From the NCBI GenBank assembly GCA_022072055.1, contig JAJVIK010000023.1, positions 62,001 through 126,000 of the forward strand: 64,000 bases of DNA, read 5' to 3'. The position numbers and the translations under genes were made by a program. The stretch is from a bacterium (lineage in GTDB: Bacteria > Hinthialibacterota > Hinthialibacteria > OLB16). Each line of letters begins with the position of its first letter. The stretch's first letter is position 1. This document shows, piece after piece, positions 12,077 to 33,932 of the stretch. Under the pieces are notes generated by a model. That model was not told the DNA's origin, made no database searches, and worked only from the letters and a program-made list of their open reading frames with translations.

Positions 12077-13165
12077 TTACTCAGGTTTCCCCGGATCCCA
12101 GATTGTGCAGGCGATGTACCTTTCAACCTGTTTGGAGTCGTGGAAGTAGTAGGCGGTCACACACTTGCCATCCGCGCGTTGGACCGTGCGCGGATACCCG
12201 AGGTCCCAGGAAGCCCCATCATCCCGGAGGTGGATCTCCTCGCCCCAGGTGACTCCCCGGTCGGCGCTGATCCGCGCCCGGATTCCGTAGGGTTCTTCCC
12301 GAAAGCCATAGACGAGGGCGATGCGGCCATCCTTGAGCCGGATCATGTGAGCCGGGTTGCCGTGGGTCTCGATGGTTGGCTCGGCCAGCTTGTACCAAGT
12401 GCGCCCATCGTCCGGGGAGAGGTGCCCCTCGATCCAGAACTTCTTTTCTCCGTCAATGAGATCCCGTCGGCGAATGATCGAGAGCAGGGCGTTTTCCGAG
12501 AGTCGAAGGGTTGAGGGCATGATCGAGTACCCCCCTTGGCCGGGTTGCTCTCCAATCCAGCCGAGAAACTCCCAGGTCAGCCCGCCATCCCTGGTCCGGA
12601 TCGAGCAGGGCCACCCCTCCCCGCCACTGTCCTTCTCGGTGGCGATGAAGGCGTGGAGATCCTGCTTGCCGTTGACAATGTAATCGGTCCGAGCAAGCAA
12701 TCCCTTGCGCCCGAAGTCGGGGAGCTTGAAAGGACCCCGCCAGGTCTTGCAGCGGTCGAGCGAGTAATAGAACCGGTCCTGGCGGAAACGGAGCGCGAAG
12801 TCCGGGTGGGTGAAATCGATGGGCGCGGAGAGGGTTTCAAAGGGTCTCTCCTCGCCATCCGAATCCAGGAACGAGGGGTGCTCGATGGTCCAGGTCTCGC
12901 CGCCATCCAGGCTCCGCGCCTGTTGGGGGAAGGAAGGGCGGTTGCGATCGATCGGGTGCCCCTCCCCGCCGGTGTCCTTGAAGTAGCCGCGAGTGAATCC
13001 GACCACGATCTCATCTCCCCACGACCAGATCCCATTGTTGGCGGGCCAACCCCCGAACCGACCGGGCTCGAGGTAGATGGTGACATTCTTGATGGGACCG
13101 ACTTCGCCCCATCCGGGAATCAGCCCAAGGGGGATCAGCAAGAGGAAGAGGATCAGGTTTTTCAT
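12077..13165 (-). CDS. Secreted Asp-box (BNR) sialidase-fold protein
   Basis: 362 residues with a clear signal peptide (MKNLILFLLLIPLGLIPGWG). Four Asp-boxes of the S-x-D-x-G-x-T-W type are seen: SLDGGETW, RTRDGGLTW, SPDDGRTW and SADRGVTW, marking a six-bladed beta-propeller like exo-sialidases. A sialidase arginine triad cannot be assigned with certainty, so it may be a non-sialidase propeller hydrolase. It sits 126 bp from tatB on the same strand and would act in the periplasm or outside the cell, in keeping with the other glycan genes. Confidence 0.82.
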   Translation of the reverse strand: MKNLILFLLLIPLGLIPGWGEVGPIKNVTIYLEPGRFGGWPANNGIWSWGDEIVVGFTRGYFKDTGGEGHPIDRNRPSFPQQARSLDGGETWTIEHPSFLDSDGEERPFETLSAPIDFTHPDFALRFRQDRFYYSLDRCKTWRGPFKLPDFGRKGLLARTDYIVNGKQDLHAFIATEKDSGGEGWPCSIRTRDGGLTWEFLGWIGEQPGQGGYSIMPSTLRLSENALLSIIRRRDLIDGEKKFWIEGHLSPDDGRTWYKLAEPTIETHGNPAHMIRLKDGRIALVYGFREEPYGIRARISADRGVTWGEEIHLRDDGASWDLGYPRTVQRADGKCVTAYYFHDSKQVERYIACTIWDPGKPE

Positions 13166-13248: not shown

Positions 13249-14991
13249 CTAGCTGACTCTCGGTGTGGCCCTCCTCGCGGTTGTGACAATTAAATCCAGC
13301 TTCTCCACCACTTCCGAATCAATCCCTCTCTTCGGTAAGAGACGAGCAAGGTTGTGATAGTCGGATTTCCGGAAAGCCAGCGGCAACCTCAGCTTCGCGA
13401 AGAACTTCTTGAACAGCGGATCAAGAAATTCATCGGAAGCCTTAATCTTCGGGTCCCATGGAGAGGGGTGACCAAGAGTCGCGAGGGCAACACTCACCTC
13501 CCGGATCGTCTCTCTCATGACCCGTTCGCGATGGCCCTTTTCGGCCAGACCGAAGAGGTCCGTGGGGAGGTCATTTCGGGCGAACGCCATCAACACCTCC
13601 TCAGTGCAAAAATAGTTTTCGATTTCACGGCGTGACCACATGGTCTCCAGTAACCATTCGTTATTCTGGAGCACCTTATCCAGGTTATCGAAAATGCCGA
13701 TGCCCACGAGGTCTCGCTTTGCTTCCTGCAGTCCGAAAAAGTGGTCCCGAGCGCGCTGCGGAAGGTTTGTTGACACATAATGAACGAATGGATTCCGTAG
13801 TATCTCTTTGGCTGGATGGTTGAGGGATTCCGCGAATGCCTGGAGGATCGCCAAGTCGCCGGCACTCTCCACATACAGCACCCATCCGGTTTGTTCAGCC
13901 TGAAGGTACTGATCAAACCCAATCTCAGAGAGCGCCTTCATCAACTGGCTGCCCTTGTCGTTGATCCGGTGGGGCTTTCCAACAAAGGCCACGACCGTGC
14001 CACAGCCCGCCGCCTCGTTGAGCACAATCTCGGAGTGACTGGCCGCGATAATCTGCGAGCCTTGGGTTTCTGCCAGGTCGGAAATCAACCGAAAAGTCTG
14101 CCTCTGACGCAGGATTTCAAGATGCGCGTCCGGTTCATCCAACAAGAGAACCGAACCTGGATTCGCGTGAAGATGAGACAAGAGCAGCAAGGTTTGGAGT
14201 AGCCCTCTTCCGGCTGACGCGAGATCGAGGGTCGATCCGCTTGCGTCCTTGTACTCCATGGTGATTTCACCTCGCTCGGCGATGTACTTGGGTGGGAGCA
14301 GACGGACTCGAAACAGGGAATCCATGTGGCCACAGATCCTCTCCCAATTCGAGGGCATGGCCTCGTGGACATGAAAACAAAGGTTGCGAATGACCTGGGC
14401 GGTCTGTCCCTCGCCGATGAGGACTCTTATCCGTCCCAGCTCCCACTTGGGTTCGGAGGTTGTAAGCCCCGACATCGGGGGGAGATACGCCAACTGAACC
14501 CTGAGTGCCTCATCGGGGATCTCGCTAAATTTGGCCTCTTGGACCTTCTTGTCTTCAAATCCGGGGAGGCGCGCCGGGCGACAAACAAAGGACTCTTCGT
14601 TACTGAAGTCGAACTCCAACCCACAAGCCCAAGCCCTATCCGTCGAGATTCCCTCCACTTTGATTTCAATACGGATGTTCTGCGTCTTGTTCTCCCCGAT
14701 TCCCCGAAGCCCCCTACGCACTTCTGTCCTTCGCCACAGCAAGTTGGCGGAGGGCACGGGGATCGAGGTTAGGTCCCTCCGATTGATGGTCACCCCCGGT
14801 CGCTTTTCGGGAGAGGCCTTGCCTCCTCGCTTCGCTTGCCACTGATCGAGTCCGATTTTCCAGAGGGCGAGCGCCTGGAGCGCCGTGGTCTTGCCGGAAT
14901 TGTTGGGACCGATAAACACAACGGGGCTTCCCAGCTCCACCTCGGCTTCACCAAACATCTTCAGATTGCGGATGAATAGGCGCGTCAGCAT
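13249..14991 (-). CDS. OLD-like AAA ATPase with TOPRIM/DUF4435-like C-terminus, putative defence protein
   Basis: 580 residues from ATG 14991 (MLTRLFIRNLKMFGE); the frame extends 27 codons upstream without support. It has an ABC-type ATPase fold: Walker A GPNNSGKTT at residues 28-36, signature-like SAGRGLLQ, Walker B VLLLDEPDAHLE near 280, and switch His in AASHSE. From about 365 comes a TOPRIM-like nuclease region with an acidic VLYVESAGD, GIFDNLD near 432 and WSRREIENYF near 455. OLD-family nucleases and the PARIS system combine such ATPase and TOPRIM parts, the latter as separate or fused proteins. The canonical DxD of the second TOPRIM motif reads DNLD here. The gene stands alone beside tRNA-Leu; horizontal arrival and an antiphage role are inference. 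Confidence 0.85.
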   Translation of the reverse strand: MLTRLFIRNLKMFGEAEVELGSPVVFIGPNNSGKTTALQALALWKIGLDQWQAKRGGKASPEKRPGVTINRRDLTSIPVPSANLLWRRTEVRRGLRGIGENKTQNIRIEIKVEGISTDRAWACGLEFDFSNEESFVCRPARLPGFEDKKVQEAKFSEIPDEALRVQLAYLPPMSGLTTSEPKWELGRIRVLIGEGQTAQVIRNLCFHVHEAMPSNWERICGHMDSLFRVRLLPPKYIAERGEITMEYKDASGSTLDLASAGRGLLQTLLLLSHLHANPGSVLLLDEPDAHLEILRQRQTFRLISDLAETQGSQIIAASHSEIVLNEAAGCGTVVAFVGKPHRINDKGSQLMKALSEIGFDQYLQAEQTGWVLYVESAGDLAILQAFAESLNHPAKEILRNPFVHYVSTNLPQRARDHFFGLQEAKRDLVGIGIFDNLDKVLQNNEWLLETMWSRREIENYFCTEEVLMAFARNDLPTDLFGLAEKGHRERVMRETIREVSVALATLGHPSPWDPKIKASDEFLDPLFKKFFAKLRLPLAFRKSDYHNLARLLPKRGIDSEVVEKLDLIVTTARRATPRVS

Positions 14992-15280: not shown

Positions 15281-16267
15281 TTGGCTGATCCGCTCTGGCT
15301 TCTCGCGGGCTTGGTGGGGACCTGGATGCTGGCTCCCCCGGCCATCCTTGTTGGCGCGGACCTGGTTCGTTCCGGGAGGCGGCGCCTCTCGCTCCGTCAC
15401 CAACAATGGTTCTGGGCCTATGTTTTCCTGGCCGTTTCGTTGGCGTGGTCCAGCCTGTTCCTGTTCTATCCACTCGCGCAGGCCATCCTTCAAAGCCTCA
15501 CCGATTTCAGCCTCACCCATGTCACCCAGACCCACTGGGTCGGCTTGCGAAACTACTCCGAAACCCTTTCCGACCCGTTCTGGTGGCATACGGTCTGGAT
15601 CACTCTGGCGTACATGGCCGCCACCGTGCCGGCGGGGGTCTTGATCAGCCTGTTTCTCGCGCTTCAAATCCTCAAGCAGCCGCCCGGGCTGCAGACCTTC
15701 TTCAAGGCCGCCCTTTACCTCCCTGGAGTGATCAGCTTCGTGGTGGGGGCGACCGTGATGAAATGGATCTTTCACAGCGGGGATGGCTTCGCCAACGGGG
15801 TCCTGCAGTCCCTGGGCATGGCGCCGAGGAACTGGTTTGGGGACCCTTCGCTGGCGATGCCGGTGCTCGTGGCGATGAGCTGGCTTTCCGCCAACGGAGT
15901 GGGAGTGATTGTGTATGCCGCCGCGCTCGGCAACATCCCCTCCACCTATTACGAGGTGGCGCGCATCGATGGGGCCACAAGCCTTCAGACCTTCCGAGCG
16001 GTCACCTGGCCCCTGGTCAAGCCGACCACCGTGTTTGTTTCGATCACCAGTTTGATCGCCGGTTTTCAAGTCTTCGCCCCCGCGCTCCTCATCACCGGAG
16101 GGGGACCTCTGCGCTCAACTTACTTCCTCAATTACCACATCTACAGGACCTTCTACTATGAGAACCATTTCGGGCTGGCTTCGGCCATGGCGGTGATGCT
16201 CATGCTGATGATCGTGGCGCTTTCATTGGTCAACTACCGTTGGCTCGCCACGGATGTGGAGTACTGA
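15281..16267 (+). CDS. ABC sugar transporter permease, MalF/UgpA type
   Basis: 328 residues from a TTG behind GAAGAGGGGG. Seven to eight hydrophobic helices are visible, with the cytoplasmic EAA loop YYEVARIDGATSLQTFRAVTWPL that contacts the ATPase. It is first of three co-directional genes (permease, permease, solute-binding protein) separated by 3 bp each. No ATPase gene is present in the cluster, so a shared MsmX/MalK-like ATPase elsewhere must energise it. Likely substrate is an oligosaccharide or polyol; nothing in the sequence specifies it. Confidence 0.92.
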   Translation: MADPLWLLAGLVGTWMLAPPAILVGADLVRSGRRRLSLRHQQWFWAYVFLAVSLAWSSLFLFYPLAQAILQSLTDFSLTHVTQTHWVGLRNYSETLSDPFWWHTVWITLAYMAATVPAGVLISLFLALQILKQPPGLQTFFKAALYLPGVISFVVGATVMKWIFHSGDGFANGVLQSLGMAPRNWFGDPSLAMPVLVAMSWLSANGVGVIVYAAALGNIPSTYYEVARIDGATSLQTFRAVTWPLVKPTTVFVSITSLIAGFQVFAPALLITGGGPLRSTYFLNYHIYRTFYYENHFGLASAMAVMLMLMIVALSLVNYRWLATDVEY

Positions 16268-16270
16268 AGG

Positions 16271-17137
16271 ATGAGCGCGCGTGAAAGCCGGGGAGTCGCC
16301 TTTTGGGGGCGGACCTTCAGCTTCATGGTCCTGGCTTTTTACACCGCGATGTCGCTGCTTTCGCTCTACCTCCTGGTCGTGGGAAGCCTTTCCCGAATCG
16401 GGACCACCCTCGAGCTCTCGGACCTCCACTGGTACCCCAAGGACTGGGCTTGGGAGAACTTCGCCACCTTCCTCGAGATCACCGGGGGCGCGGCCCCGAT
16501 CTGGTTCCGGAACAGCTTCCTGGTCGCGTTCCTTCCGACCGTGTTCAACCTGTTTTTCTCGGCGATGGCCGGGTACGCCCTGGCCAAGCTCGATTTCCCG
16601 GGCCGGCAATTCATCTTCTGGACCATCATCGCGGTGATGGCGATCCCCGCCTTTGTCACCCTGATTCCGATGTATCAGATGATGTTTCGGTTCGGATGGT
16701 TCGACACCTATTTCGCGCTGCTGGTGCCCAGGATGGCGGGGTTGGGCGGGATCTTCCTGTTCAAACAGTTCACCCAGACCCTGCCGGGTGATTTGATGGA
16801 GGCGGCGCGGATGGATGGTGCCTCGGAGGCGACCATCTTCCTACGGATTGTCCTGCCGCTCGCGACTCCGGTGCTGGCGGTGATGTTCCTGCTCGATTTC
16901 GTGGCGGGTTGGAGCGATTACTTCTGGCCATACCTGGTGACCAACTCCCGCGGTCTGCTGACCCTCCAGGTCGGACTGATTTCCCTGATCGGGGTCGATC
17001 AGGGATTCATCCTGCCGCACGACATGGGCGCGATCCTCGCCGGGGCCTTGATCGCCAGTCTACCGGTGATCGTGCTGTTTGTGTCGCTTCAGAAATACTT
17101 CGTGCGCGGGTTGACCCTCGGCGCGGTGAAAGGGTGA
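16271..17137 (+). CDS. ABC sugar transporter permease, MalG/UgpE type
   Basis: 288 residues, ATG three bases after the preceding stop with GAAGG just upstream. Six membrane segments and a typical EAA loop (LMEAARMDGASEATIFLRIVLPL) and the C-terminal motif GLTLGAVKG mark the second membrane subunit of CUT1-type sugar importers. It pairs with the upstream permease to form the translocation channel. Confidence 0.93.
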   Translation: MSARESRGVAFWGRTFSFMVLAFYTAMSLLSLYLLVVGSLSRIGTTLELSDLHWYPKDWAWENFATFLEITGGAAPIWFRNSFLVAFLPTVFNLFFSAMAGYALAKLDFPGRQFIFWTIIAVMAIPAFVTLIPMYQMMFRFGWFDTYFALLVPRMAGLGGIFLFKQFTQTLPGDLMEAARMDGASEATIFLRIVLPLATPVLAVMFLLDFVAGWSDYFWPYLVTNSRGLLTLQVGLISLIGVDQGFILPHDMGAILAGALIASLPVIVLFVSLQKYFVRGLTLGAVKG

Positions 17138-17140
17138 GCC

Positions 17141-18655
17141 ATGAAAAACCTCCTCATCGCCACCCTCTCGCTCGCCCTTGCCCTCACTCTCTTGGTCCAC
17201 TGGTTGCACCTGAAGGAGCCGGCTGGAGGGTCGGCCCGCGAGGCGGGCGGAGAACACTCGGACCTTGTTCAGGTCTGGGTGGATGAACTCATCGGTTCGC
17301 CGGAGGAATCCTACTACTACGAGCTCGCCGACCTGTGGAACCAGACCCATCCGGGTGTCAAAGTGAAGATGACGGTCATGGCGCACTCCGGCTACGAGAG
17401 CAAGCTGCGGATTGCTCTGGCTTCCGGTCAACCGCCGGATGTCTGCCTGGGGGGACTCGAAAGCCTGGAGAACCTGCGTTACACCGGCAAGGCTGAAGAC
17501 CTAGCTGTGACCATCCCCGAGGAGTTCTTTCCAAGGTCTCGTGTCAAGGAACTGGGTCCGGTGGTCGAAACCCTGATCCTCCGCGATGGCCGCCCAACCA
17601 CGTTCCCGGTCTACCGCTACTCCTATGGCGGTTTCATCCTGGCCAACCGAGCGATGCTCCTTGAAGCGGGGTGCGATGATGAGGAGATCCGACGGAACGG
17701 CTGGACCTTTGAGCAGTTCCGGGATGCCTGCCGGAAGATGACGCGCGACACGAACGGGGATGGGACCCCGGACATCTGGGCTTTCGGCGCGGCGCTGGTC
17801 CACCTCAACCAGCTCTTCCTCCATGAATTCGGCCCGGCGGTGTGGGGCAAGGAGGTTCACCGGCGTTCACTGATGGCTTGGGATCAAGCGAAACAGCGCT
17901 GGGATGTCCACTCCGCGCTCACCGAGGAGCAGATCCGGATTGTGTTCGCCCTCTTCGATGACCTGATCAACGAGGACAAGGTTTGGAACCCGGCCTACTT
18001 CGGGATGAACTGGAACGAGATCAACGAGGAGCTGATCGGCAAGCGCAGGTTGGCCATGGCCTTCGGGGAAATGCCTTGGGTTCCGAAGACCCGCCTCGAT
18101 ATGTGGGACCTGGAGGAGAAGCAGGGCGTGGTGCATGAGAACCCGCGCCCAGACCTGACCGTGGTGTGGATGCCGACTCTCAAGGCCGGGGACCGTCCCG
18201 TCCCAAGGTCGGGCCTGTATGGCTTCAATGTCATGAGGCAGACCCCCTACAAGGGAGATGAACACACCCACAACGCCATCCGGGTGGCGCTCTTCATCAC
18301 CCACCCGGTGCATCTGGTCCGTTCCCAATTCCGCAGATTCCGCCATCTCCCCGCCGACCCGGTTCGTTTCAGCCGGATGTTTCCGGAGATGGTGGACCCG
18401 GAGGACAAGTGGGTGCGCTTTTATGAAGAGGTTTTCAACTCGGACATTCCACTGGCCGAACCGCCGCTCGGCTCCGAAACCCCCGATCTGGAGAACTACC
18501 TGAAGCTGCGTGTCGAATTCACACGCTGGATGGAAAAGAGCGGGATCACCTACCTCCAAGAGGTCATCTTCCGGCGAATGACCCCCGAAGAGGGGGCGCG
18601 CAAATTCATGGAGGATCTCCGGGCCCTGCCGAGGAGTGTGTATTCAGCCCCGTAA
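17141..18655 (+). CDS. ABC transporter sugar-binding protein, family 1, membrane-anchored
   Basis: 504 residues. The N-terminus (MKNLLIATLSLALALTLLVHWL) is hydrophobic but has no lipobox Cys, so it is likely held by an uncleaved helix or cleaved by signal peptidase I. The mature part has the two-lobed family 1 pattern: VQVWVDEL, ELADLWNQTHPGVKVKM, SGQPPDVCLGG, and a central YGGFILANRAML. Closely packed with the two permeases (3 bp). The gene order, with binding protein last, is reversed relative to the second importer at 31.7-35 kb. Its stop codon lies in the hairpin shared with the convergent gene. Confidence 0.9.
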   Translation: MKNLLIATLSLALALTLLVHWLHLKEPAGGSAREAGGEHSDLVQVWVDELIGSPEESYYYELADLWNQTHPGVKVKMTVMAHSGYESKLRIALASGQPPDVCLGGLESLENLRYTGKAEDLAVTIPEEFFPRSRVKELGPVVETLILRDGRPTTFPVYRYSYGGFILANRAMLLEAGCDDEEIRRNGWTFEQFRDACRKMTRDTNGDGTPDIWAFGAALVHLNQLFLHEFGPAVWGKEVHRRSLMAWDQAKQRWDVHSALTEEQIRIVFALFDDLINEDKVWNPAYFGMNWNEINEELIGKRRLAMAFGEMPWVPKTRLDMWDLEEKQGVVHENPRPDLTVVWMPTLKAGDRPVPRSGLYGFNVMRQTPYKGDEHTHNAIRVALFITHPVHLVRSQFRRFRHLPADPVRFSRMFPEMVDPEDKWVRFYEEVFNSDIPLAEPPLGSETPDLENYLKLRVEFTRWMEKSGITYLQEVIFRRMTPEEGARKFMEDLRALPRSVYSAP

Positions 18656-18679
18656 GACAGGCATCGCTGCCTGTCTTAC
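18652..18679. terminator. Bidirectional hairpin holding both stop codons
   Basis: A 12-bp perfect stem (GTAAGACAGGCA / TGCCTGTCTTAC) with loop TCGC lies between convergent genes. The TAA of the plus-strand binding-protein gene and the TAA of the minus-strand FG-GAP gene are both inside the stem, mirror images of one another. No T-tract follows, so it may stop transcription weakly or protect 3' ends. It shares the GACAGGCA core with the hairpin at 6811-6845. Confidence 0.65.
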
Positions 18680-21288
18680 TGCTCGCTCAGCACATTCAGG
18701 AACCCATCCGTGGTCGGCGCGAGGATCTCGCATCGCCCATCCCCGGTGACATCCGCCGCGATCAGGTTTCCTACTCCGGCGGAAAGCTCGGCTTTCCATA
18801 CAACCCTCGATACGCTTCCACCCTCTCCCACCGCATACAGCGCTTTGTGACTGGTTCCGAACACAAACTCCTGGATGCCGTCGCCATCGACATCGAGTGT
18901 CGCGGGATCCGAACAGGTTCCTTGAACATCGAGTTCCCAGCGCCGGCTTCCATCCTTCACATTGAGGCAGACGAACTTTCCGTCCTGACGCCCGAAACCC
19001 ATCAACCATTCACCCGAGGGCAATTGAAGAAAGGTTTCAACAGCCGAAGGGGCCTCTCCACACAGCGGCAGTTTGTACCAATACGGCGCGGCGCGCAGGG
19101 ACATCGCGGCCTGGAAGTAGTGCCCGGAGACCAGGGCGACCGTCGGGTCGCCGGAAGGCGAATCAAGAATCGCGGGGAAGGTGTACAGCCCCTGGCTCGG
19201 TTGCTTGAAGATGTTCGGTGGATAGAGCGGGCCGAGCAGCGATCCCCCAGTGGGGCCATCGGCCACACAGTAATAGTCCGGATTGGTGAAGATCAGGTCC
19301 TCGTTCCCATCCCGGTTGAAATCAAACGCAGAGGCCAGGTCCACGCTGGCCCCCCAATAGCGCTCGATGCCCTCCGCCTCGCCCTTGTCCCAAAGCAACT
19401 TGCCGGAGAGTCCATCCACCCCCACGCTCCGAACAATCGGGGTGGAGGCCCAAACATACAGGTCGGGCGTGGGCTTGCCCGTGAAGTGGACGGATCGCAT
19501 GTAGAGCTTCCTGGGGGCGGGTAGCCCGGGACGGTCGGGGGATGGGAACACCGAGCGCCAGAGCAGGCGGTTCCCCTTCGAGGGCGTGCGCGCCACGAGG
19601 ATCGGGGTGGCAACCGGGTCCACCTGCCCGGTGACCAGTTCCTGAGCGCCATCCCCATCCAGATCGACAATCAGCGGCAGGCCGCTCGAAACCCCGCCGG
19701 TGACCGAAACAATCTCACCGGATGGGGTCACGCTGAGAATCTCGTAGTTCGGATCGCGGAAGATCAGAATTTCGTTGCGATCATCCCCGATAAGGTCCCC
19801 GGCAAGAAGTTCGGGAACGGGCCCTCCCGCGATAGCCGGACGCGCGCTGAAGGCATCCTTGGGTTTGGGCTGCCTCTCCGGCTCCGCCCCGACGACATAC
19901 CCTTGTCCGCTCCGCCAGGTCACCTGCAATCGAGACCCTTCGCGCTGGAGCGGAAAAGCATCTTCGGAAGCCGGTTTGTTGAGCGCGGCCTGTTTCCCGC
20001 GCTTCCCTCGACCGGTGGTCTCCGGAAACACGGCGTGGGTGTCTTCCCAGAGAAGGCGAAACTCCGGGGTGGCCGCCTCCAGGACAACCGCGCCTTCAAG
20101 ATCGGTGCGTGTGGGGTCGGCGCAGCGATTGGCGGCGATCTCGGCTTTCCCGTTGCCATCCAAGTCCTCAAGCCCGGTGGCCAACATCCCCGGCCGGCGA
20201 TATTTCATCCTCCCTGACTCCGCGTCATAGACCCGAATGAGCCAGGCCGATTCCCCCTCCGAGTTGAACATCGAAACCACCACTTCGAGGTTCCCGTCTC
20301 CATCCACATCGGCGTAGGGCGGATCGGGCCAGAGGCTCGCCACCTTGCCGATGGTGACACTCTCATCCCAACCGTAATGCCAGGCCTTTTCCAACAAACC
20401 TCCCCGATTCAGGAGGACCTCATGGTGTTGCGCGAAGGTTGCGATGCATAAAAAGTCCTCGCGCCCATCGCCGTTCAGATCGACAAACTCCACATGGCCG
20501 TAGCTGCGAACATTGGCCGGGCTGACATCCCATTCCAAAAATTGCTTCACCTTCCCCGTGGGAGCGTCAAACACCCACATCTTGCTGTGAGTCTCGACCA
20601 CCACCTCCCGTCTGCCGTCGCCGTCAAGGTCGGTTCGGAGCAGGGACGGGAAGCAGGTGTAAGAGTCAAAGTCATACCGCCACACCTGCTCCGGGGGCGC
20701 TCCCGGCTTGGGGAAGTCGAACAACACAATGTAGCCGTTCTTTTCATCCGGGGGGTAAGCGTGCATGAGCACAATGAGCTGTTTACGCCCCGCGGTTTCA
20801 AGGTAATCGTCGGCGGAGACATTCCAGGAGTAGGACATCGGCTCGACATCATAGCGCCAGAGCAAATGCCCATCCGCGATGGAAACCAGCGCCGCGGCCC
20901 CATAGGGTTGGGTGGGGCGCCCGGCGCTTAGCAGGGCCTCGAAGGTCCCATCCCCGTCGAGGTCTTCAATGGTCACCACCTGAGTGAAATTCAATCCCGG
21001 CGGGTGTGTTTTCCAGAGGCTGGTCCCGGAGTCGTCGTGGCAAAGCAACTCGCCGGCCACCACCGAGAGGGCGAGCGGCGACTGACCCTCTCGTTCCGGG
21101 ACAACATGGATCGAGGGCTGGGTTCGCCCAAGGTCAAATCGACCCAGGATCCTGGGTGGGGACTTCATCCCCGCGGGAACCGGCTGGATCCCGGTAAGAT
21201 GAGGGTTTTGTCTCGGTTCGGGCCAGTCTCCGGGGGCGGCGAGAGAAGTGACAGAAAGGAGGACCAGGAAACCGGGGATGAATTTCAC
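18676..21288 (-). CDS. Secreted FG-GAP/VCBS repeat beta-propeller protein
   Basis: 870 residues from the GTG at 21288, which overlaps the upstream stop as GTGA and gives a proper signal peptide (KFIPGFLVLLSVTSLAA). At least nine calcium-type loops of the D-x-D-G-D-G form are seen, e.g. DLDGDGTFEALL, DLDGDGRREVVV, DLNGDGREDF, DVDGDGNLEVVV, DLDGDGAQELV and DVDGDGIQEFVFG, so the chain should form one or two integrin-like propellers mixed with PQQ-like stretches (GHLLWRYDVE, LLWDKGEAEG). Such proteins bind glycans or other proteins at the surface; no enzyme motif is evident. It ends the minus-strand operon that starts at 26156. Confidence 0.85.
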   Translation of the reverse strand: MKFIPGFLVLLSVTSLAAPGDWPEPRQNPHLTGIQPVPAGMKSPPRILGRFDLGRTQPSIHVVPEREGQSPLALSVVAGELLCHDDSGTSLWKTHPPGLNFTQVVTIEDLDGDGTFEALLSAGRPTQPYGAAALVSIADGHLLWRYDVEPMSYSWNVSADDYLETAGRKQLIVLMHAYPPDEKNGYIVLFDFPKPGAPPEQVWRYDFDSYTCFPSLLRTDLDGDGRREVVVETHSKMWVFDAPTGKVKQFLEWDVSPANVRSYGHVEFVDLNGDGREDFLCIATFAQHHEVLLNRGGLLEKAWHYGWDESVTIGKVASLWPDPPYADVDGDGNLEVVVSMFNSEGESAWLIRVYDAESGRMKYRRPGMLATGLEDLDGNGKAEIAANRCADPTRTDLEGAVVLEAATPEFRLLWEDTHAVFPETTGRGKRGKQAALNKPASEDAFPLQREGSRLQVTWRSGQGYVVGAEPERQPKPKDAFSARPAIAGGPVPELLAGDLIGDDRNEILIFRDPNYEILSVTPSGEIVSVTGGVSSGLPLIVDLDGDGAQELVTGQVDPVATPILVARTPSKGNRLLWRSVFPSPDRPGLPAPRKLYMRSVHFTGKPTPDLYVWASTPIVRSVGVDGLSGKLLWDKGEAEGIERYWGASVDLASAFDFNRDGNEDLIFTNPDYYCVADGPTGGSLLGPLYPPNIFKQPSQGLYTFPAILDSPSGDPTVALVSGHYFQAAMSLRAAPYWYKLPLCGEAPSAVETFLQLPSGEWLMGFGRQDGKFVCLNVKDGSRRWELDVQGTCSDPATLDVDGDGIQEFVFGTSHKALYAVGEGGSVSRVVWKAELSAGVGNLIAADVTGDGRCEILAPTTDGFLNVLSEQ

Positions 21289-22532
21289 ACCCGGTTCCTC
21301 TCCGCCACCTCGGCCACAATCTCGGCGGCCAGATGGCAGTGCTCCTCGGTGTATTTCTCGCAGAAGGTGGACCAGCGAATGAAATGCTCCAGGAACGCCT
21401 TGGCGTTGGGACATGAGTCGGGACCGTAGCGATACTCGCGCGAGGCCGGGGGTGTCGAGTAGGGGTAAGCCTTCCGTTCCGCGTTCTCGGCAAGGAAGGT
21501 GAGGGCTTCGGGCATGAGGTAATACTTCCCTTGTCCCGCGCCGGGGATGCCCGCCTCGGCGAGTTGCCGCGCGAACTCCTCGGCATCACAGCGGAAGGCG
21601 CTCGGGTCGATCCTGAATCCGGTCATCCAGCAGGAATAGACATTCACGAATTCGGGAATCCCGAGCGGGGTGACTCCGGGGATTTCGTCGAGGAGCTCGG
21701 TGAGCAACCGAATCATGCGGTCGCGTCGGACAACCTGTTCGCGGATGATCTCGAGTTGCGCCAGCGAGATCGCGGCGGTGCAAAGCGGCATCCGGTAGGC
21801 GTACCCCGGTTCGGCGTGGAGCCTCCCGTAATGGGGTTTCATCACCCCGCCGCGGCTTTGCCCGATGAAGCGGACCCGCTCCGCGAGCTCATCATCTTGG
21901 GTCACCACGCACCCGCCCACATCCGAGCCCATGGTTTTTTCCGAATCGAAGGAGAACCCCGCCGCGAACCCGAGGGTTCCCGCGAGCCTCCCCTGGTACT
22001 CGCTGAAGACCGCCTGGCAGGCATCCTCATACACAATCAAGTTGTGTTTGGCCGCGAGCGCGTTGATCGGGGCCATGTCGCACACCAGACCGGTGAAGTG
22101 GACCACCAGGACCGCGCGGGTGCGGTCGGTGATGCACGGCTCAATCGTGCGCGCGCTCAAGTTGACATCGCCCGGCTCGGTGTCGGCGAAAACCGGGATG
22201 TAATTCTCGCGGATCAGCCCCTGCAGGGTGCCGTAATCGGTGATCGGGCTGACAATGATTTCGTCTCCCGGCTCGAAGGGAAAGGCGGCGGCGAGCGCGG
22301 CCAACGCCGGAGTGCAACCGGGAGTCGCGATGCAGTGTTTGACCCCCAGTTCCTCGGCGAAAGCGCTCTCGAAGCGGTGGGTCATATCGGCCAGGAGACC
22401 GCTTTGGACCACCTCCTCCAGGTACTTGAGGGCGTTCGGACCCAAGGTTCTCGGGAAGGGGGTGGGGAGAACCCCGACCTCATCCCGATGGGCCGCCGCA
22501 CCGAACTTTGCGCGCTGAATGGCCACAATCAT
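21285..22532 (-). CDS. DegT/DnrJ/EryC1/StrS-family PLP aminotransferase
   Basis: 415 residues from ATG 22532, which overlaps the deacetylase stop (ATGA) behind AGAGG. Members of this family put amino groups on keto-sugars or cyclitols. Family marks: TPGCTPALAALAAAF at the cofactor end, GDEIIVSPITDYGT, DTEPGDVNLS, YEDACQAVFSEYQG with the PLP-facing Asp, and FSFDSEKTMGSDVGG, where the Lys should carry PLP. With a Gfo/Idh dehydrogenase upstream in the operon it forms an oxidation-transamination pair as known for kanosamine-, dideoxy-sugar- and aminocyclitol pathways; the substrate here is unknown. Confidence 0.9.
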   Translation of the reverse strand: MIVAIQRAKFGAAAHRDEVGVLPTPFPRTLGPNALKYLEEVVQSGLLADMTHRFESAFAEELGVKHCIATPGCTPALAALAAAFPFEPGDEIIVSPITDYGTLQGLIRENYIPVFADTEPGDVNLSARTIEPCITDRTRAVLVVHFTGLVCDMAPINALAAKHNLIVYEDACQAVFSEYQGRLAGTLGFAAGFSFDSEKTMGSDVGGCVVTQDDELAERVRFIGQSRGGVMKPHYGRLHAEPGYAYRMPLCTAAISLAQLEIIREQVVRRDRMIRLLTELLDEIPGVTPLGIPEFVNVYSCWMTGFRIDPSAFRCDAEEFARQLAEAGIPGAGQGKYYLMPEALTFLAENAERKAYPYSTPPASREYRYGPDSCPNAKAFLEHFIRWSTFCEKYTEEHCHLAAEIVAEVAERNRV

Positions 22533-23266
22533 TTCCTCTTTTCCGTGAGCAGAAAGTCCACCACCTCGTTCGGTTCGGCCAACCAGACATCGTCGCCGCC
22601 GACTCGGCACACCGTGGCGAAACGTTCCTCCAGCTCCTCGACCGTGCAATCCTTGGCGGGGTGGATCGGCTTTCCGGGCATGGGGCAGTGACAGTAGTCG
22701 ATGATCCAGCCGCCCTGGTCGATGGCTTGGTGGATGCGCTTGTAGGGGTCGAAGACCGAATAGAACGGGGGCGGATACTCGGTGTGCAGGGGGCAGCGCC
22801 CCAACCGCAGCAGGTCGGTGTGGATCGTGTTCACTTGGTCGTAGATGGTGAGGATCGAGGTGTACCCGGCCTCTCCCGCCAGCGCGAGCGTATGCGGGTA
22901 GTTGGTGTTGTCGCCGGGCACACAGAACAGGGTGACCGGCATGTCAATCGCCGCCTCCAGGACACGCCTGCTCTCAACCACCTCGCGATGGGCGTTCTCA
23001 TCGGTGAAAGTGGCGTGGGTCAGGCTGTGACAGGAAACCCCCCAGCCCTCCTTGGCCAGGGCATGAATCTGCTGCTTGGTGAGGATCATCATCCCATCGT
23101 AGCTGCTGCCGGGGACATTCCGGGGGACCCCGATCTGGCTCGCCACCAGCGCCAGGTGGCCGGGGATGCCGTATTTCCGATGAACCGGAAGGGCGTGATC
23201 GAGCAGCGCCGCGCAGCCCTCATCGTACGTGATCGAGTACACCCAACGTTTCCCGTTCTTCCACAT
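22529..23266 (-). CDS. Polysaccharide deacetylase (NodB) family protein
   Basis: 245 residues, cytoplasmic (no leader). NodB-fold metal-site motifs are visible: TYDEG (motif 1, one Asp rather than the usual TFDDG), H-x3-H in SCHSLTHATF (motif 2) and FCVPGDNTN as motif 3. Later residues include DYCHCPMPG near the end of the barrel. Intracellular members deacylate small N-acylated sugars. Coupled by ATGA to the aminotransferase and 3 bp after the nitrilase-like gene. Confidence 0.85.
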   Translation of the reverse strand: MWKNGKRWVYSITYDEGCAALLDHALPVHRKYGIPGHLALVASQIGVPRNVPGSSYDGMMILTKQQIHALAKEGWGVSCHSLTHATFTDENAHREVVESRRVLEAAIDMPVTLFCVPGDNTNYPHTLALAGEAGYTSILTIYDQVNTIHTDLLRLGRCPLHTEYPPPFYSVFDPYKRIHQAIDQGGWIIDYCHCPMPGKPIHPAKDCTVEELEERFATVCRVGGDDVWLAEPNEVVDFLLTEKRK

Positions 23267-23269
23267 GGA

Positions 23270-24088
23270 TCAGGGTTTCTCCTCCACAAGCGCCGCATAG
23301 TAGCGCGGCTTGCGCCTGCCGTCGAACATCTCGCGCAGGGTCGCTTCGTATCCTTCGTTCCAGAAGGGCATCCGCCATTTGGGGTCAAACTCAGCGATGG
23401 CCACCCCGGCTTGGTGGCCGGTGGAGGCGATCACTCGACCATCCGGGGCGATCACCTTGGCGTACCCCATGTTCTTGCCCGCGAGAAAGGGGGCATCGAA
23501 ATAGCGCGACAGGGCGAAATACATCTGGCTGTCGACGGCGCGCGCCTTTTCGAGGCTTTCGAGCATGTCCCCGGTGTAATCCAGGTACATCGTCGGCACA
23601 CACACCAGGTCCGCCCCCTTGAGACCGTAGATGCGGAACATCTCAGGGAAGTGAATGTCCATGCAGATCGCGATTCCGAGTTTGACCCCTTCAAAGTCGA
23701 AGAGCGGAAAGGGGTCGCCGTTGGGCTCCTCGGTGATGATTGCCTCCTCGGAGGGCGCGGGGTGTTTCTTAAAATAGGTCCCGACCAGCTCCCCCTTGCG
23801 ATTCAACAGGAACCCCGTGTTGGCATAGCCTCCACCCGCTTTGGCCGAGACGGACCCAACCACCCCGACGCGGGATTGCCGTGACGCCTCCTGGTAAGAA
23901 ACAAACAGAGGGTGCTCCTCCAGGCAGTGCTCCCCGGCGGTCTTTCCCGCCACCACCTCCGGCTCCTCCGGAAGGAGCACCAGGTCCGCGCCGCGCTCCC
24001 CGGCTTCATGGATGGCCGCGACCGCGGCTTCCTCACACCCTTGGCGGGGAACAGACGTAACGGCGAGACGGAAGAGGTTAATGGTCAT
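23270..24088 (-). CDS. Carbon-nitrogen hydrolase (nitrilase superfamily), first copy
   Basis: 272 residues from ATG 24088 (MTINLFRLAVTSVPR). A longer open frame reaches upstream through a palindromic repeat, but the homologous part starts here. Catalytic triad of the superfamily: Glu in LLPEEPE, Lys in TYFKKHPAPSEE, Cys in IAICMDIHFPEMFR. It should hydrolyse an amide or N-carbamoyl bond. It shares the operon with a second, different nitrilase-family enzyme, separated from it by a 113-bp inverted-repeat element. Confidence 0.87.
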   Translation of the reverse strand: MTINLFRLAVTSVPRQGCEEAAVAAIHEAGERGADLVLLPEEPEVVAGKTAGEHCLEEHPLFVSYQEASRQSRVGVVGSVSAKAGGGYANTGFLLNRKGELVGTYFKKHPAPSEEAIITEEPNGDPFPLFDFEGVKLGIAICMDIHFPEMFRIYGLKGADLVCVPTMYLDYTGDMLESLEKARAVDSQMYFALSRYFDAPFLAGKNMGYAKVIAPDGRVIASTGHQAGVAIAEFDPKWRMPFWNEGYEATLREMFDGRRKPRYYAALVEEKP

Positions 24089-24134
24089 TACGTTTGTTCT
24101 CTGTGCTCGTCCAGAAATTGCACTCCGGTCCCTT

Positions 24135-24247
24135 CTTTTGAACCACGGAAATCTCGGAACAGTTGGAAGGATCGGAATCCGACGTGGAGCGGAACATTCC
24201 GATTTCCGAACTTTCCGTGCGCTTCCGAATCTTCCGTGGTTCAAAAG
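24135..24247. repeat. Inverted-repeat element (MITE-like, ACCACGGAA family)
   Basis: A 113-bp element whose ends are 16-bp perfect inverted repeats, CTTTTGAACCACGGAA (24135-24150) and its complement (24232-24247); the inner halves remain partly symmetrical with repeated CGGAA/TTCCG units. It sits between two operon genes and forms no gene. Similar ACCACGGAA-type palindromes are dispersed in many bacterial genomes. I see no other copy in the window. Confidence 0.8.
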
Positions 24248-24267
24248 CCGACAATCAGGGCACTGTC

Positions 24268-25185
24268 CTACACGCCGCCATGCTCCTTCCTCACGCGGCG
24301 GCTGCGCTTGAAGTAATCGTACAGCGTCTCGACTCCGAATTCCCGGATAAGGTCCTTCACCTCCAGACCCTTCTTCAAGCTGGTGATGACCACCACTGCC
24401 TCGTCGCGCATGTCCTCCACGATCACATCCCCGGCGTACTTCGTTCGCATCCGATCGAGCGCGCCCATGTTTCCATCCATGTGCACCACGCGCCGATTCA
24501 GGTTGAGAACCCCGGTTGTGTAGGGGCAATAGTCGCTGGTGCGCGCAAGGACCGCGCCGGTGCAATCGAGAATCCGGTTGTGGTCATACCAGGTGCTCGC
24601 CGCGAGGGCAAAGCCATAACGCACCACCCAGGAATCCAGCAAACGTCCCGCGGGAAAGGCGGAAGGGAAGAGAAGCAGCTCGATATCCTGCTTGAACCAC
24701 ATCTCCGCCAACTCGTTGAAGTTGATATCGAAACAGATCGCCGCGCCCAGACGTCCGAAGTCGGCATCGAACGCCATAGGCTCCCCGCCCGGAATGACCC
24801 CGCACTGCTCCATCTCATAGGGCACCGGGGTGAACTTATCGTAGATCCAGACCGGCTTTCCCCCGCGATCCAGCAGCGCCATGCTGTTATGAGCCTTGTC
24901 GCCATCCTTCCGCAGCAACCCATAGGCGATATAGCAGCCATGCTTGCGAGCCAGCGCAGAAAGCTCCTCGGTAATCGGACCCTTGAAGTCCTCCGCGGTC
25001 TTCTGAGTCCCGCACTCGTTGTTGTCGGTCGGACAATTGGCGAACTGTTCGGTGAGAAGAATCACATCGGGCCGGTCCCGCGAGACCAGATCGATCCGCT
25101 CACGAGCCCGCGCGAGGAGGGTGTCACGATCCTCGCGGAGGGCGACCTTCGCGGTGTTGACTATGGAAACTCGCGCTTCCCTCAC
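24268..25185 (-). CDS. Carbon-nitrogen hydrolase (nitrilase superfamily), second copy
   Basis: 305 residues from a GTG overlapping the upstream stop (GTGA). Triad: Glu in LLTEQFANCP, Lys in YDKFTPVPYEMEQ, Cys in AAICFDINFNE. The second acidic residue (EM/EQ after the Lys) fits amidase/N-carbamoylase branches. It is clearly diverged from the neighbouring copy at 23270-24088, so the two probably act on different bonds or form a hetero-oligomer. Translation is coupled to the Gfo/Idh gene. Confidence 0.88.
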   Translation of the reverse strand: MREARVSIVNTAKVALREDRDTLLARARERIDLVSRDRPDVILLTEQFANCPTDNNECGTQKTAEDFKGPITEELSALARKHGCYIAYGLLRKDGDKAHNSMALLDRGGKPVWIYDKFTPVPYEMEQCGVIPGGEPMAFDADFGRLGAAICFDINFNELAEMWFKQDIELLLFPSAFPAGRLLDSWVVRYGFALAASTWYDHNRILDCTGAVLARTSDYCPYTTGVLNLNRRVVHMDGNMGALDRMRTKYAGDVIVEDMRDEAVVVITSLKKGLEVKDLIREFGVETLYDYFKRSRRVRKEHGGV

Positions 25186-26156
25186 AAGCGTTGAACCTCC
25201 CCTGTTCGGATGGCCCGATCCGACGCCAGCACCATCCGGGTGGCCTGGATTCCATCCCTCGCGTTCAGCTCCGGCTCGCGATCCTCCAGCAGCGCCCGAA
25301 CGAACTCCACATTCTCCAGATGGAAACCCTCCTCCTCCGGGCGCTCCTCGGTCCAGGTTCGCTCGCCATCGGAGAAGGTCGCCTTCTTGAGCCGATCATA
25401 CAGCTGCACCGACCTTCCGCCATTCCCAAACAGCTCAAAGTAGAACTTGCCGGTGAAAGGCGGCAGACCGGCATCCCCCTGGATCCAGGCCGCCACATGA
25501 CCATTCGCGAAACGGATCGAGGCCACGCACTGGTCGATGCATGCATGCCGCGGATGGGTGAAGGTTCCGCCTGCCGCCCAGATCGCCTCCGGTTCACTGC
25601 CTGAGAAATACCTCAGAATATCGGTCGTGTGGCACCCCTGGCTATGAACATTGGCGCCGCCGGTCACCGGGTCCTGCGCCCAACTGTCATCCGCCCAGCG
25701 CCTGTCCATCATCTGCCCGACCATCACCAACGGCTCGGGGATGAACTCGCGCGCCATGCGGACCAGCGGGTAGTAGCGCATCTTGAAGGCGGGCATGAGG
25801 TGGACTCCGGCTTTCTCCACCTCGCGCGCGACCGTCTCGCAGTCTTCGATCCCAAGCGCGAGCGGCTTCTCGATCAGGATATGTTTTCCCGCGCGCGCGG
25901 CGTCGATGGCGAGCGGGGCATGGGAGTCATGGCGGGTCACAATATAGACCGCCTGGAGGGACCGGTCCTCAAGCACGCGGCCAGGCTCCGTGGTGGCATA
26001 CTCCCCGCCGAAGTCCTCCAGCAATTCTTTCGCGGCATCCTCCACGATATCGCAGTAGGCCACGAAGTGGGCCTCCGGAATGCGCTTCAGGCACTCGGCG
26101 TGGACTCGACCGAGGCCGCCGCAACCGATCAAACCGAAGCGAAGCGGGGCGGGCAT
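25182..26156 (-). CDS. Gfo/Idh/MocA-family NAD(P)-dependent dehydrogenase
   Basis: 324 residues. The N-terminal Rossmann motif GLIGCGGLGRVH binds NAD(P); EKPLAL is the family's conserved Lys-Pro motif, and GCHTTDILRYFSG carries the catalytic His region. Members oxidise ring hydroxyls of sugars or inositols. As first gene of the minus-strand operon it could supply the keto-sugar used by the DegT aminotransferase. No promoter is obvious in the 9 bp to the prepilin gene, so transcription may begin upstream of that gene. Confidence 0.92.
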   Translation of the reverse strand: MPAPLRFGLIGCGGLGRVHAECLKRIPEAHFVAYCDIVEDAAKELLEDFGGEYATTEPGRVLEDRSLQAVYIVTRHDSHAPLAIDAARAGKHILIEKPLALGIEDCETVAREVEKAGVHLMPAFKMRYYPLVRMAREFIPEPLVMVGQMMDRRWADDSWAQDPVTGGANVHSQGCHTTDILRYFSGSEPEAIWAAGGTFTHPRHACIDQCVASIRFANGHVAAWIQGDAGLPPFTGKFYFELFGNGGRSVQLYDRLKKATFSDGERTWTEERPEEEGFHLENVEFVRALLEDREPELNARDGIQATRMVLASDRAIRTGEVQRL

Positions 26157-26165
26157 GGACCCGAA

Positions 26166-26873
26166 TCAGTAATTGAAGTCCTCCCGATGGAGGTTCATCG
26201 GGGGAGGTTTCGAGGGATCGTAGATCGGACTTCCCGATCCGAACTCGTAGATGTCGCCGAACGACACCGTCCCGTTGGTCGGGCTGTAAAATTGTGGGGT
26301 CCCCCAAACCGTGGAATCGACGCGGTCAGCGCCGGAGCTGTAGTAAATGAAGGCCGAGTGCTTGGCGGAGGTGTTCCAGAGCTCGCTGATCGGCACCGGC
26401 CCGCCCGCTTTTTGCTGGACCTCGGGGTTGTTGGTGACCACCGAGCCGATGGGCCAAGAGGCCGCGATGGCGGTGTTGCGGATCACCGTGTAGGGCGGAT
26501 CGGACTCGGCCCCGGAAAGCGCCCGCCAGAACCCGATGGTGTAGTCATCGGTAAACGGCTCGAAGGGGAGCTCGGTGAGGAAGCGGATCGGGGTGGTGAG
26601 AAGGTGGCTGGCGAATCCCCACCACTCGGAATAGGTCCCCGCGATGGAAAGCCCCGGCATGTCGGTCTTGGGTTCGCGCATATTCCACTGGACCCGGTAG
26701 GATTCGGTGGCGGTGGTCAGCGTCCTCATCTCCTGGCGCACATGCGCGATCTTCGAGCGAATTTGCGCTTCCAGGAAATTGGGCAGCGCAATGGCGATCA
26801 GGATCAGGATGATGGCGATGACAATCAGAAGCTCGATCAAAGTGAAGCCGCGGGCCATGTGTTGCTTAAACAT
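26166..26873 (-). CDS. Type IV prepilin-like / pseudopilin protein
   Basis: 235 residues from ATG 26873, chosen because GAGGTGA lies 5-6 nt upstream; a second ATG at MARGF is possible. The prepilin peptidase site G-FTLIE is at residues 9-14, followed by the hydrophobic helix LLIVIAIILILIAIALP and the NFLEAQ motif common in single prepilin-like proteins of uncultured PVC-like and candidate phyla. The C-terminal part (about 50-235) is beta-rich and not recognised. No secretion ATPase or peptidase gene is nearby. Nine base pairs downstream starts the Gfo/Idh operon. Confidence 0.88.
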   Translation of the reverse strand: MFKQHMARGFTLIELLIVIAIILILIAIALPNFLEAQIRSKIAHVRQEMRTLTTATESYRVQWNMREPKTDMPGLSIAGTYSEWWGFASHLLTTPIRFLTELPFEPFTDDYTIGFWRALSGAESDPPYTVIRNTAIAASWPIGSVVTNNPEVQQKAGGPVPISELWNTSAKHSAFIYYSSGADRVDSTVWGTPQFYSPTNGTVSFGDIYEFGSGSPIYDPSKPPPMNLHREDFNY

Positions 26874-27060
26874 CAGGGTCACCTCGCGCATAAAGATAAA
26901 GAGGTTCGGAACGGAGCACGGGTGCCATGCTCGCGCCGGGCTCCATGGTAGAACGAACCGGGCGGCGGATGAACTGCCGTCTTTTTCGCTGGTCCACGGA
27001 GTTCGGAGGCGGCCCGGCGGGGGGGGATTGCGCCCTCCGCGCGGACATTCCCCGGTGGAC

Positions 27061-31677: not shown

Positions 31678-33041
31678 GATTGGTTGTTCCGGTTCTCCTC
31701 CTCGCGCTTACCGTCCCGCTGTCGGGCTGCTCAAAGGCCCCGGCCACCGACGGCAAAATCCACCTGAAGTATTGGGCGGTGTGGAACGGCTTTGAGCTGG
31801 AGGCCATGCGCTCGGTGGTGGACCTCTTCAATCGCTCGCAAGACAGAATTCATGTCGATCTGCTGTCCATCAGCTTCCTTGAACGCAAGCTGCTGGTCGC
31901 CACCGCCGGAGGCAATCCTCCCGATATCTTCAGCCTCGGATATGAGTGGGTTGTCGATTACGCGCAGAAAAACGCCATTCTTCCCCTGGATGGCTACTTG
32001 GAGCGCGCGGGGATTAAGCGCGAGGATTACATCCCTGTGTTTTGGGATCAATGCCTCTTTGACAACCGTGTGTGGGGGCTCCCGATTAACGGCTCCTGCA
32101 TCGCCTTCCATTACAACAAGGCCCATTTCCGCGAGGCGGGTCTCGATCCGGGAAATCCTCCCAAAACCCTGGCCGAGCTGGAGGCCATTGAGCCCAAGCT
32201 CAACCGCTTCAGCGGCAACCGGATCGAACGGCTGGCGTTCATTCCAAGTTCCCAGGACCCGGATTGGTGGCCCTACTGTTGGCCCTGGTTCTTCGGCGGG
32301 GAGCTCTGGGACGGGAAAGACAAGCTGACCCTGACCAGCCCGGAATGCGTGGAAGCCTACGAGTGGGTCGCGAGCTTCCCCAAACGATTGGGGGCCGCGC
32401 GAATCCAACCCCTGCGCGCAAGCTTCGGGAACCTGTTCGCGTCATCCCAGAACCCCTTCCTTTCCGGGAAGCTTTCGTGTCTCTTCCAAGGGTCCTGGAT
32501 GGCGAGTTTCGTGGAGAAGTACGCTCCCGGATTGGAATTCGGAGTCGCTCCCATGCCGACTAAGACTCAGGACTTGTACGGAACCACGGTGGTGGAAGGA
32601 GATGTCATCTTCATCCCCGCCGGGACCAAGGACCCGGACGCGAGTTTCGAGTTCATCAAGTTTGTCGCCTCGCAAAGGGGGACCGAGCTGTTCTGCACCG
32701 GGATGCGCTCGGTGAACCCGCGCGCGGTTCGCAGCGAGGAGTTCATGCGGAATCACCCCAACCCGAACATAGAACAGTTTGACGCCCTCGCGCGCGGCGA
32801 CAAGGCCCACTATGCGCCCAAGGTCTCGATCTGGTACGAAATGCTGGATGAGATGCAGGTGGTTCTCTCCCAGGCGTGGCTCCATCAGATTCCCCCCGCC
32901 AGGGCGCTGGCGAAGGCTCAGGATCGCCTTCAGGCCCGGCTGGAGCAGGAGCTGGAGCGTTGGCGGCTGGTGTCGCGGGCGCGACATGCCGAGTGGGACG
33001 CTTTCATCGAGAAGAGCCGCAAGGGGGTGCCCCTCCAATGA
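31674..33041 (+). CDS. ABC transporter sugar-binding lipoprotein, family 1
   Basis: 455 residues from GTG 31674, overlapping the preceding stop (GTGA); a longer frame runs back into the nucleotidyltransferase gene but only this start gives a lipoprotein leader ending in LSGC. Mature part: LKYWAVWNGFELEAMRSVVDLFN, GGNPPDIFSLGYEWV, YNKAHFREAGLD and WMASFVEKYAPG, as in CUT1 sugar-binding proteins. Its stop overlaps the next ATG (ATGA). Confidence 0.92.
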   Translation: MRLVVPVLLLALTVPLSGCSKAPATDGKIHLKYWAVWNGFELEAMRSVVDLFNRSQDRIHVDLLSISFLERKLLVATAGGNPPDIFSLGYEWVVDYAQKNAILPLDGYLERAGIKREDYIPVFWDQCLFDNRVWGLPINGSCIAFHYNKAHFREAGLDPGNPPKTLAELEAIEPKLNRFSGNRIERLAFIPSSQDPDWWPYCWPWFFGGELWDGKDKLTLTSPECVEAYEWVASFPKRLGAARIQPLRASFGNLFASSQNPFLSGKLSCLFQGSWMASFVEKYAPGLEFGVAPMPTKTQDLYGTTVVEGDVIFIPAGTKDPDASFEFIKFVASQRGTELFCTGMRSVNPRAVRSEEFMRNHPNPNIEQFDALARGDKAHYAPKVSIWYEMLDEMQVVLSQAWLHQIPPARALAKAQDRLQARLEQELERWRLVSRARHAEWDAFIEKSRKGVPLQ

Positions 33042-33922: not shown

Positions 33923-33932
33923 GGTGGCGAGG

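Follow-up and report, generated by a model that had tools for sequence, protein, structure and literature searches.

A recurrent nit2-NodB-DegT gene unit, mostly in uncultivated bacteria, and its possible role in the use of a nitrogen-bearing sugar-like compound

RESULTS

nit2, NodB and DegT form a recurrent genomic unit

A 64,000-nucleotide stretch of contig JAJVIK010000023.1 (positions 62,001 to 126,000; assembly GCA_022072055.1, Hinthialibacterota), hereafter the window, carries adjoining genes for a carbon-nitrogen hydrolase (nit2), a NodB-fold hydrolase and a DegT/DnrJ/EryC1/StrS-family aminotransferase. Comparison with other genomes showed that these three genes recur together across several phyla and that their grouping is beyond chance. 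On balance, we favor the view that they belong to a nutrient-utilization cluster in which nitrogen is stripped from a sugar-like compound by a core made up of an amide hydrolase, a metal hydrolase of the NodB fold and an aminotransferase of the DegT family. A sequence-only reading of the window had joined them with a Gfo/Idh dehydrogenase, a second nitrilase-family gene (nit1) and an FG-GAP gene into one six-gene cluster facing a sugar importer. The unit nit2-NodB-DegT-FG-GAP, the importer and the chemistry of N-linked groups were borne out, whereas the six-gene order and the membership of Gfo/Idh and nit1 were not.

The core genes lie on the minus strand and encode three soluble proteins of 245–413 aa: nit2, the core amidase, at 23270–24088 (CN_hydrolase, 100 bits); NodB, which represents a distinct subfamily and has no signal peptide, at 22529–23266 (Polysacc_deac_1/NodB, PF01522, 42 bits); and DegT at 21285–22526 or 22532 (PF01041, 225 bits), its start codon being either GTG 22526 or ATG 22532. 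They are followed on the same strand by an accessory partner, an FG-GAP multi-propeller protein with an N-terminal signal-like segment (18676–21288; FG-GAP_3, 88 bits). As read from the sequence, 3 bp separate nit2 from NodB, NodB and DegT overlap by ATGA, and DegT and FG-GAP overlap by GTGA.

DegT orthologues with 59%–78% identity were found in about seven phyla, mostly in uncultivated bacteria. Scanning contigs with a DegT alignment yielded 17 loci of 65%–78% identity, all in metagenome-assembled genomes, with records labeled Omnitrophota, Phycisphaerae, Planctomycetota, Armatimonadota, Hydrogenedentota, Latescibacterota, Gemmatimonadota, Desantisbacteria, Zipacnadia and Marinimicrobia. Since the genomes titled Latescibacterota and Gemmatimonadota (G102–G104) belong to one phylum and the Zipacnadia genome (G109) was grouped with Armatimonadota, the count comes to about seven. 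Among 98 relatives of the window's genome, a DegT of about 75% identity was present only in G008, G012 and G013, from another family of the window's class, and the only two further genomes from the family of the window lacked it. The DegT tree mostly tracked phyla with some mixing, the Hydrogenedentota forming one clade with the window's class beside it (81% support). Horizontal transfer as the main driver of the spread was rejected because of this largely phylum-following tree, and a search for plasmid carriage of DegT found none.

Whole-genome searches detected the NodB subfamily in 17 of 68 genomes of the Hydrogenedentota phylum, 26 of 251 sampled from the Armatimonadota phylum and 38 of 64 of the G103 phylum, and in a single genome among 343 sampled from the Phycisphaerae genome's phylum and a single one among 199 sampled from the phylum that includes the Marinimicrobia genome. 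NodB accompanied DegT in all 12 DegT-positive Hydrogenedentota genomes (adjacent in eight, on different contigs in four) and in all 36 DegT-positive genomes of the G103 phylum (Fisher p = 8e-10 and 6e-16, respectively, with shared ancestry ignored).

Gene neighborhoods were compared around 54 NodB loci. The order Nit2-NodB-DegT recurred in the window's class (L073, L074, L089), Hydrogenedentota (L182, L185, L186, L188), the G103 phylum (L208) and Phycisphaerae (L075), with close spacing in most, and a Nit2 gene lay directly upstream of NodB in 14 loci besides the window. NodB and DegT occurred together without Nit2 in L078, L086, L184, L187, L189, L190, L195, L196, L205 and L206. A further arrangement, DegT-isochorismatase-...-NodB, with a NodB class 42%–47% identical, was seen in L079–L081, L211–L221 and L224. 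Tandem or multiple B-type NodB genes were present in L220 and in genomes G804, G805 and G808–G812.

Two amidase families alternate beside NodB

The slot near NodB held a Nit2-type nitrilase in 15 of the 54 loci, an isochorismatase-family protein in 29, both in none and neither in 10 (Fisher 4e-7 for the mutual exclusivity, uncorrected for phylogeny). The isochorismatase-family slot proteins c2 and c7 were homologous to each other (E 2e-11). The nearest NCBIfam models were N-carbamoylputrescine amidase and deaminated-glutathione amidase for Nit2, and RutB and biuret amidohydrolase for the isochorismatase-family proteins, all weak matches far below cut-off. Cleavage of primary amides and of N-carbamoyl groups is established for members of both the nitrilase and the isochorismatase families, and on this ground the step common to the two slot proteins would be amide or carbamoyl hydrolysis.

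Inspection by eye revealed a leader of the twin-arginine translocation (Tat) type on NodB in one Hydrogenedentota clade (L187, MNRRHFLELGGAALVAP, and L190–L194), and an export signal on c7 wherever its start was intact (L187, L189, L190, L192). As both hydrolases are exported in one clade, this suggests that NodB and c7 act on the same compound ahead of DegT. In L193 (10243–14319), a 1358-aa apparent fusion joins a protein of about 1000 aa to the isochorismatase; the two are separate in L187, L189, L191 and L192.

Conserved residues and folds of the core enzymes

In a 56-sequence alignment, the NodB metal triad Asp15/His80/His84 was invariant, and Glu16, Asp143, Arg157, Asp190, His193, Cys207 and others were invariant or nearly so. 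The AlphaFold2 (AF2) model of NodB had a predicted local distance difference test (pLDDT) score of 96; Foldseek placed 3rxz first (E 7e-10) and also retrieved enzymes of carbohydrate esterase family 4 (CE4), with probability 1.00 but template modeling (TM) scores of only 0.5–0.6. Single-sequence searching found no solved relative of NodB, and profile matches were weak. Measured against the published motif definitions of CE4 and the motif losses of the allantoinase PuuE (PMC10967932), the window NodB shares the fold and the Asp-His-His metal triad of CE4/NodB deacetylases, but it has Glu in place of the second motif-1 Asp (TYDE, versus TFDD in CE4) and lacks the motif-3 Arg (R-P-P-Y-G), with DYCHCP and KDC motifs instead. 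Identity with PuuE/allantoinase was rejected, as the motif-1 Asp and the second motif-2 His are retained.

Nit2 resembles the amidases of the nitrilase superfamily (N-carbamoylputrescine amidase, Nit2/omega-amidase) in its PF00795 domain and its Glu-Lys-Cys triad, E41-K107-C142, which was invariant in 15 orthologues. It differs from them in falling far under every NCBIfam equivalog cut-off (about 50 bits versus 410 for aguB; 65 versus 355 for deaminated-glutathione amidase) and in having conserved motifs of its own, such as KxHPAPSEE and YxDYTGDMLE. In the DegT family the catalytic Lys is replaced by His in the dehydratase subgroup; the window DegT has Lys197, which aligns with the Lys of perosamine synthetase and was invariant in 44 orthologues. 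Its closest solved relatives include perosamine synthetase and BtrR-type enzymes, and aminotransferase activity on a keto-sugar is predicted.

An importer and an FG-GAP protein accompany the core in some genomes

Converging on the FG-GAP gene, with stop codons 20 bp apart, are three plus-strand genes: permease 1 (15281–16267) and permease 2 (16271–17137), both BPD_transp_1 (PF00528), and a solute-binding protein, SBP_bac_1 (17141–18655; PF01547). The two permeases with an SBP_bac_1 protein match CUT1 importers of the UgpAE/MalFG type, from which the window system differs in having no ATPase gene beside its permeases; CUT1 systems often share one ATPase. The earlier proposal that this importer belongs with the cluster was upheld by its occurrence elsewhere. 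Orthologues with the same perm1-perm2-SBP order lie divergently beside Gfo-Nit2-NodB in L183 and L111 of Hydrogenedentota (permease 1 73%, permease 2 69%–70% and solute-binding protein 52%–53% identical), and in L087 of Marinimicrobia the genes ATPase-SBP-perm1-perm2-FGGAP-nitrilase-NodB-DegT run in one direction. The L087 importer, which includes a MalK-type ATPase, is more distant (permease 2 51%–58%, solute-binding protein 32% identical).

FG-GAP proteins 58% (L182) and 49% (L185) identical to that of the window were encoded downstream of DegT, in L182 with one gene between. The AF2 model consisted of beta-propellers, and a fold search matched generic propellers only, so that a specific function was not obtained in this way.

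Several nearby genes deserve mention. A second CUT1 importer in the window (31680–34976) has permeases 39%–50% identical to those of importers at the Hydrogenedentota cores L077, L182, L186 and L188, which are nearer to it than to the first importer. A BNR/Asp-box (sialidase-like) protein (12077–13165) shares 61% identity with a protein encoded near the L182 core and FG-GAP genes and may be a further accessory component. An AAA_21 ATPase gene (13249–14991) adjoins the first importer and has, by eye, the look of an OLD-type nuclease.

Gfo/Idh and nit1 look like a joined second module

Upstream of the core, on the same strand, lie nit1, a second carbon-nitrogen hydrolase gene with a GTG start (24268–25185; PF00795, 72 bits), and a Gfo/Idh/MocA dehydrogenase gene (25182–26156; PF01408, 80 bits), which overlap by GTGA. 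The gene calls, families and four tight junctions reported earlier were all confirmed from open reading frames, Pfam and the sequence. The fifth junction, between nit1 and nit2, is a 179-bp gap (24089–24267), identified by sequence and own-genome search as containing an imperfect palindrome, TTGAACCACGGAA...TTCCGTGGTTCAA, of which about six copies exist genome-wide, the others being partial and 70%–83% identical. The six-gene run is therefore interrupted here, setting Gfo-nit1 apart from the core. Three copies of the palindrome fall within 2 kb on contig C1, and the gene immediately preceding Gfo/Idh, in the same orientation, encodes a pseudopilin-like protein with a prepilin leader (26166–26891).

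Both upstream genes are variable partners. The best relatives of nit1 were at most 36% identical and none stood beside a core; a Gfo-...-Nit1-like pair occurred in L232 without NodB or DegT. The Glu-Lys-Cys triad of nit1 was seen by eye in the single sequence. As a core gene nit1 was rejected, given a closest relative of 36% identity unlinked to the core. Near other cores, Gfo/Idh proteins were of different subfamilies or absent, with no close orthologue; the best NCBIfam model for the window protein was IolG (144 bits, under the cut-off of 355), and the 5.86-Mb host genome contains 69 Gfo/Idh matches. The exact order of six genes claimed for the cluster was in no other genome seen, and only sub-blocks recurred. 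The run in the window thus looks like a composite of the core and a joined Gfo-nit1 module.

Genes beside the core in other genomes

Elsewhere, the cores adjoin genes for an APH-type kinase (c8), class III aminotransferase, enolase-superfamily protein, creatininase, AAT (acyl-CoA:6-APA [6-aminopenicillanic acid] acyltransferase family), penicillin amidase and M55 D-aminopeptidase, as well as LacI regulators, CUT1 importers and a NagA-like deacetylase (201 bits versus a cut-off of 226). These neighbors mostly concern C-N bond hydrolysis and sugar uptake. A longer block of DUF5069, creatininase, DegT, AAT, esterase-like protein, isochorismatase and NodB recurs in L079–L081, L216 and L224.

DISCUSSION

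We propose that the cell binds and imports a sugar-like compound that carries an N-acylated amine as well as an amide or carbamoyl group, the secreted FG-GAP protein possibly helping to bind it. Hydrolysis of the primary amide or carbamoyl function would fall to Nit2 and removal of the N-acyl group to NodB, after which DegT might transfer the amino group so released to a 2-oxo acid, giving a keto-sugar or keto-cyclitol. Gfo/Idh, and the APH-type kinase in relatives, could then channel the keto product into central metabolism, with Gfo/Idh and Nit1 as local add-ons. The substrate, the order of the steps and their direction are inferred; the N-acylated amino-sugar or aminocyclitol suggested earlier may be the substrate. 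Chemistry of N-linked groups, as suggested earlier, is supported; DegT had been assigned the addition of an amino group to a ketone, and its removal now looks more likely because of the importer, the LacI regulators and the exported hydrolases in relatives.

Several observations weigh against this utilization pathway. No neighboring gene names the substrate. Ten of the 54 loci have neither amidase nearby, in some cases because contigs end, and in G100, G105, G108 and G161 NodB and DegT are on separate contigs. In c2 and c7 an invariant His occupies the position at which Asp is expected for their family, which makes hydrolase activity uncertain, and NodB has FCVPG without the motif-3 Arg, so that deacetylation is not assured. 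DegT enzymes of known function are mostly biosynthetic, and L073 and L088 adjoin, by eye, glycosyltransferase/exopolysaccharide-type genes.

The genes beside L073 would fit biosynthesis, in which DegT aminates a keto-sugar made by Gfo/Idh and acyl groups are trimmed off by NodB and the amidase, leading to a surface sugar or a secreted aminoglycoside-like product. The relationship of DegT to perosamine synthetase and BtrR-type enzymes agrees with this, as does the NtdABC/KabABC kanosamine operon of Bacillus, where a sugar dehydrogenase (NtdC) is paired with a pyridoxal phosphate (PLP)-dependent sugar aminotransferase (NtdA) (PMC8788734). NtdA is a distant homologue of the window DegT (E 1.9e-15), but the known operon is biosynthetic and has no NodB, amidase or importer, and its trio of dehydrogenase, DegT and phosphatase is not reproduced here, there being no phosphatase in the cluster and no conservation of Gfo/Idh beside DegT. 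We consider biosynthesis unlikely, since Gfo/Idh is not a conserved partner, nucleotide-sugar pathway genes were not recognized near most cores, and uptake and breakdown are favored by the importers, by the LacI regulators and by the export of NodB together with its amidase partner.

A ureide- or hydantoin-type pathway, in which NodB, like PuuE acting on allantoin, would open a cyclic amide and Nit2 or the isochorismatase-family protein then removes an N-carbamoyl group, draws on the NodB fold of PuuE allantoinase, which would pair with a carbamoyl amidase, on the N-carbamoyl hydrolases within both amidase families and on the creatininase-family proteins beside DegT in L079–L081. We regard it as improbable: D15, H80 and H84 are kept in all members, whereas in PuuE the Asp residues of motif 1 are missing along with the second His of motif 2, and the fold search put deacetylase-type NodB structures first. 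That unrelated genes merely lie side by side in a genome rich in sugar genes, as the many Gfo/Idh matches and the lack of conservation of nit1 and Gfo with the core could indicate, is very improbable overall. Coincidence is contradicted for the core by the same-order nit2-NodB-DegT genes and linked importer in other phyla and by the near-perfect NodB/DegT co-occurrence, and it may hold for Gfo-nit1.

A limited search of open-access papers found no published description of the nit2-NodB-DegT combination, in agreement with the earlier statement that no described pathway has this set. The enzyme families are all known; their combination is kept in Hydrogenedentota, Armatimonadota, the phylum of the Latescibacterota- and Gemmatimonadota-titled genomes, Planctomycetota, Marinimicrobia and others, phyla known chiefly from metagenomes. 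Going beyond the utilization reading, and more tentatively, the core could encode a route, so far undescribed, for the catabolism of a nitrogen-rich sugar-like compound in about seven phyla, one step being filled by either of two unrelated amidase families and the hydrolytic enzymes being exported in some lineages. If so, there would be a widespread nitrogen-bearing sugar-like nutrient so far unlinked to genes, and three uncharacterized enzyme subfamilies would gain functions.

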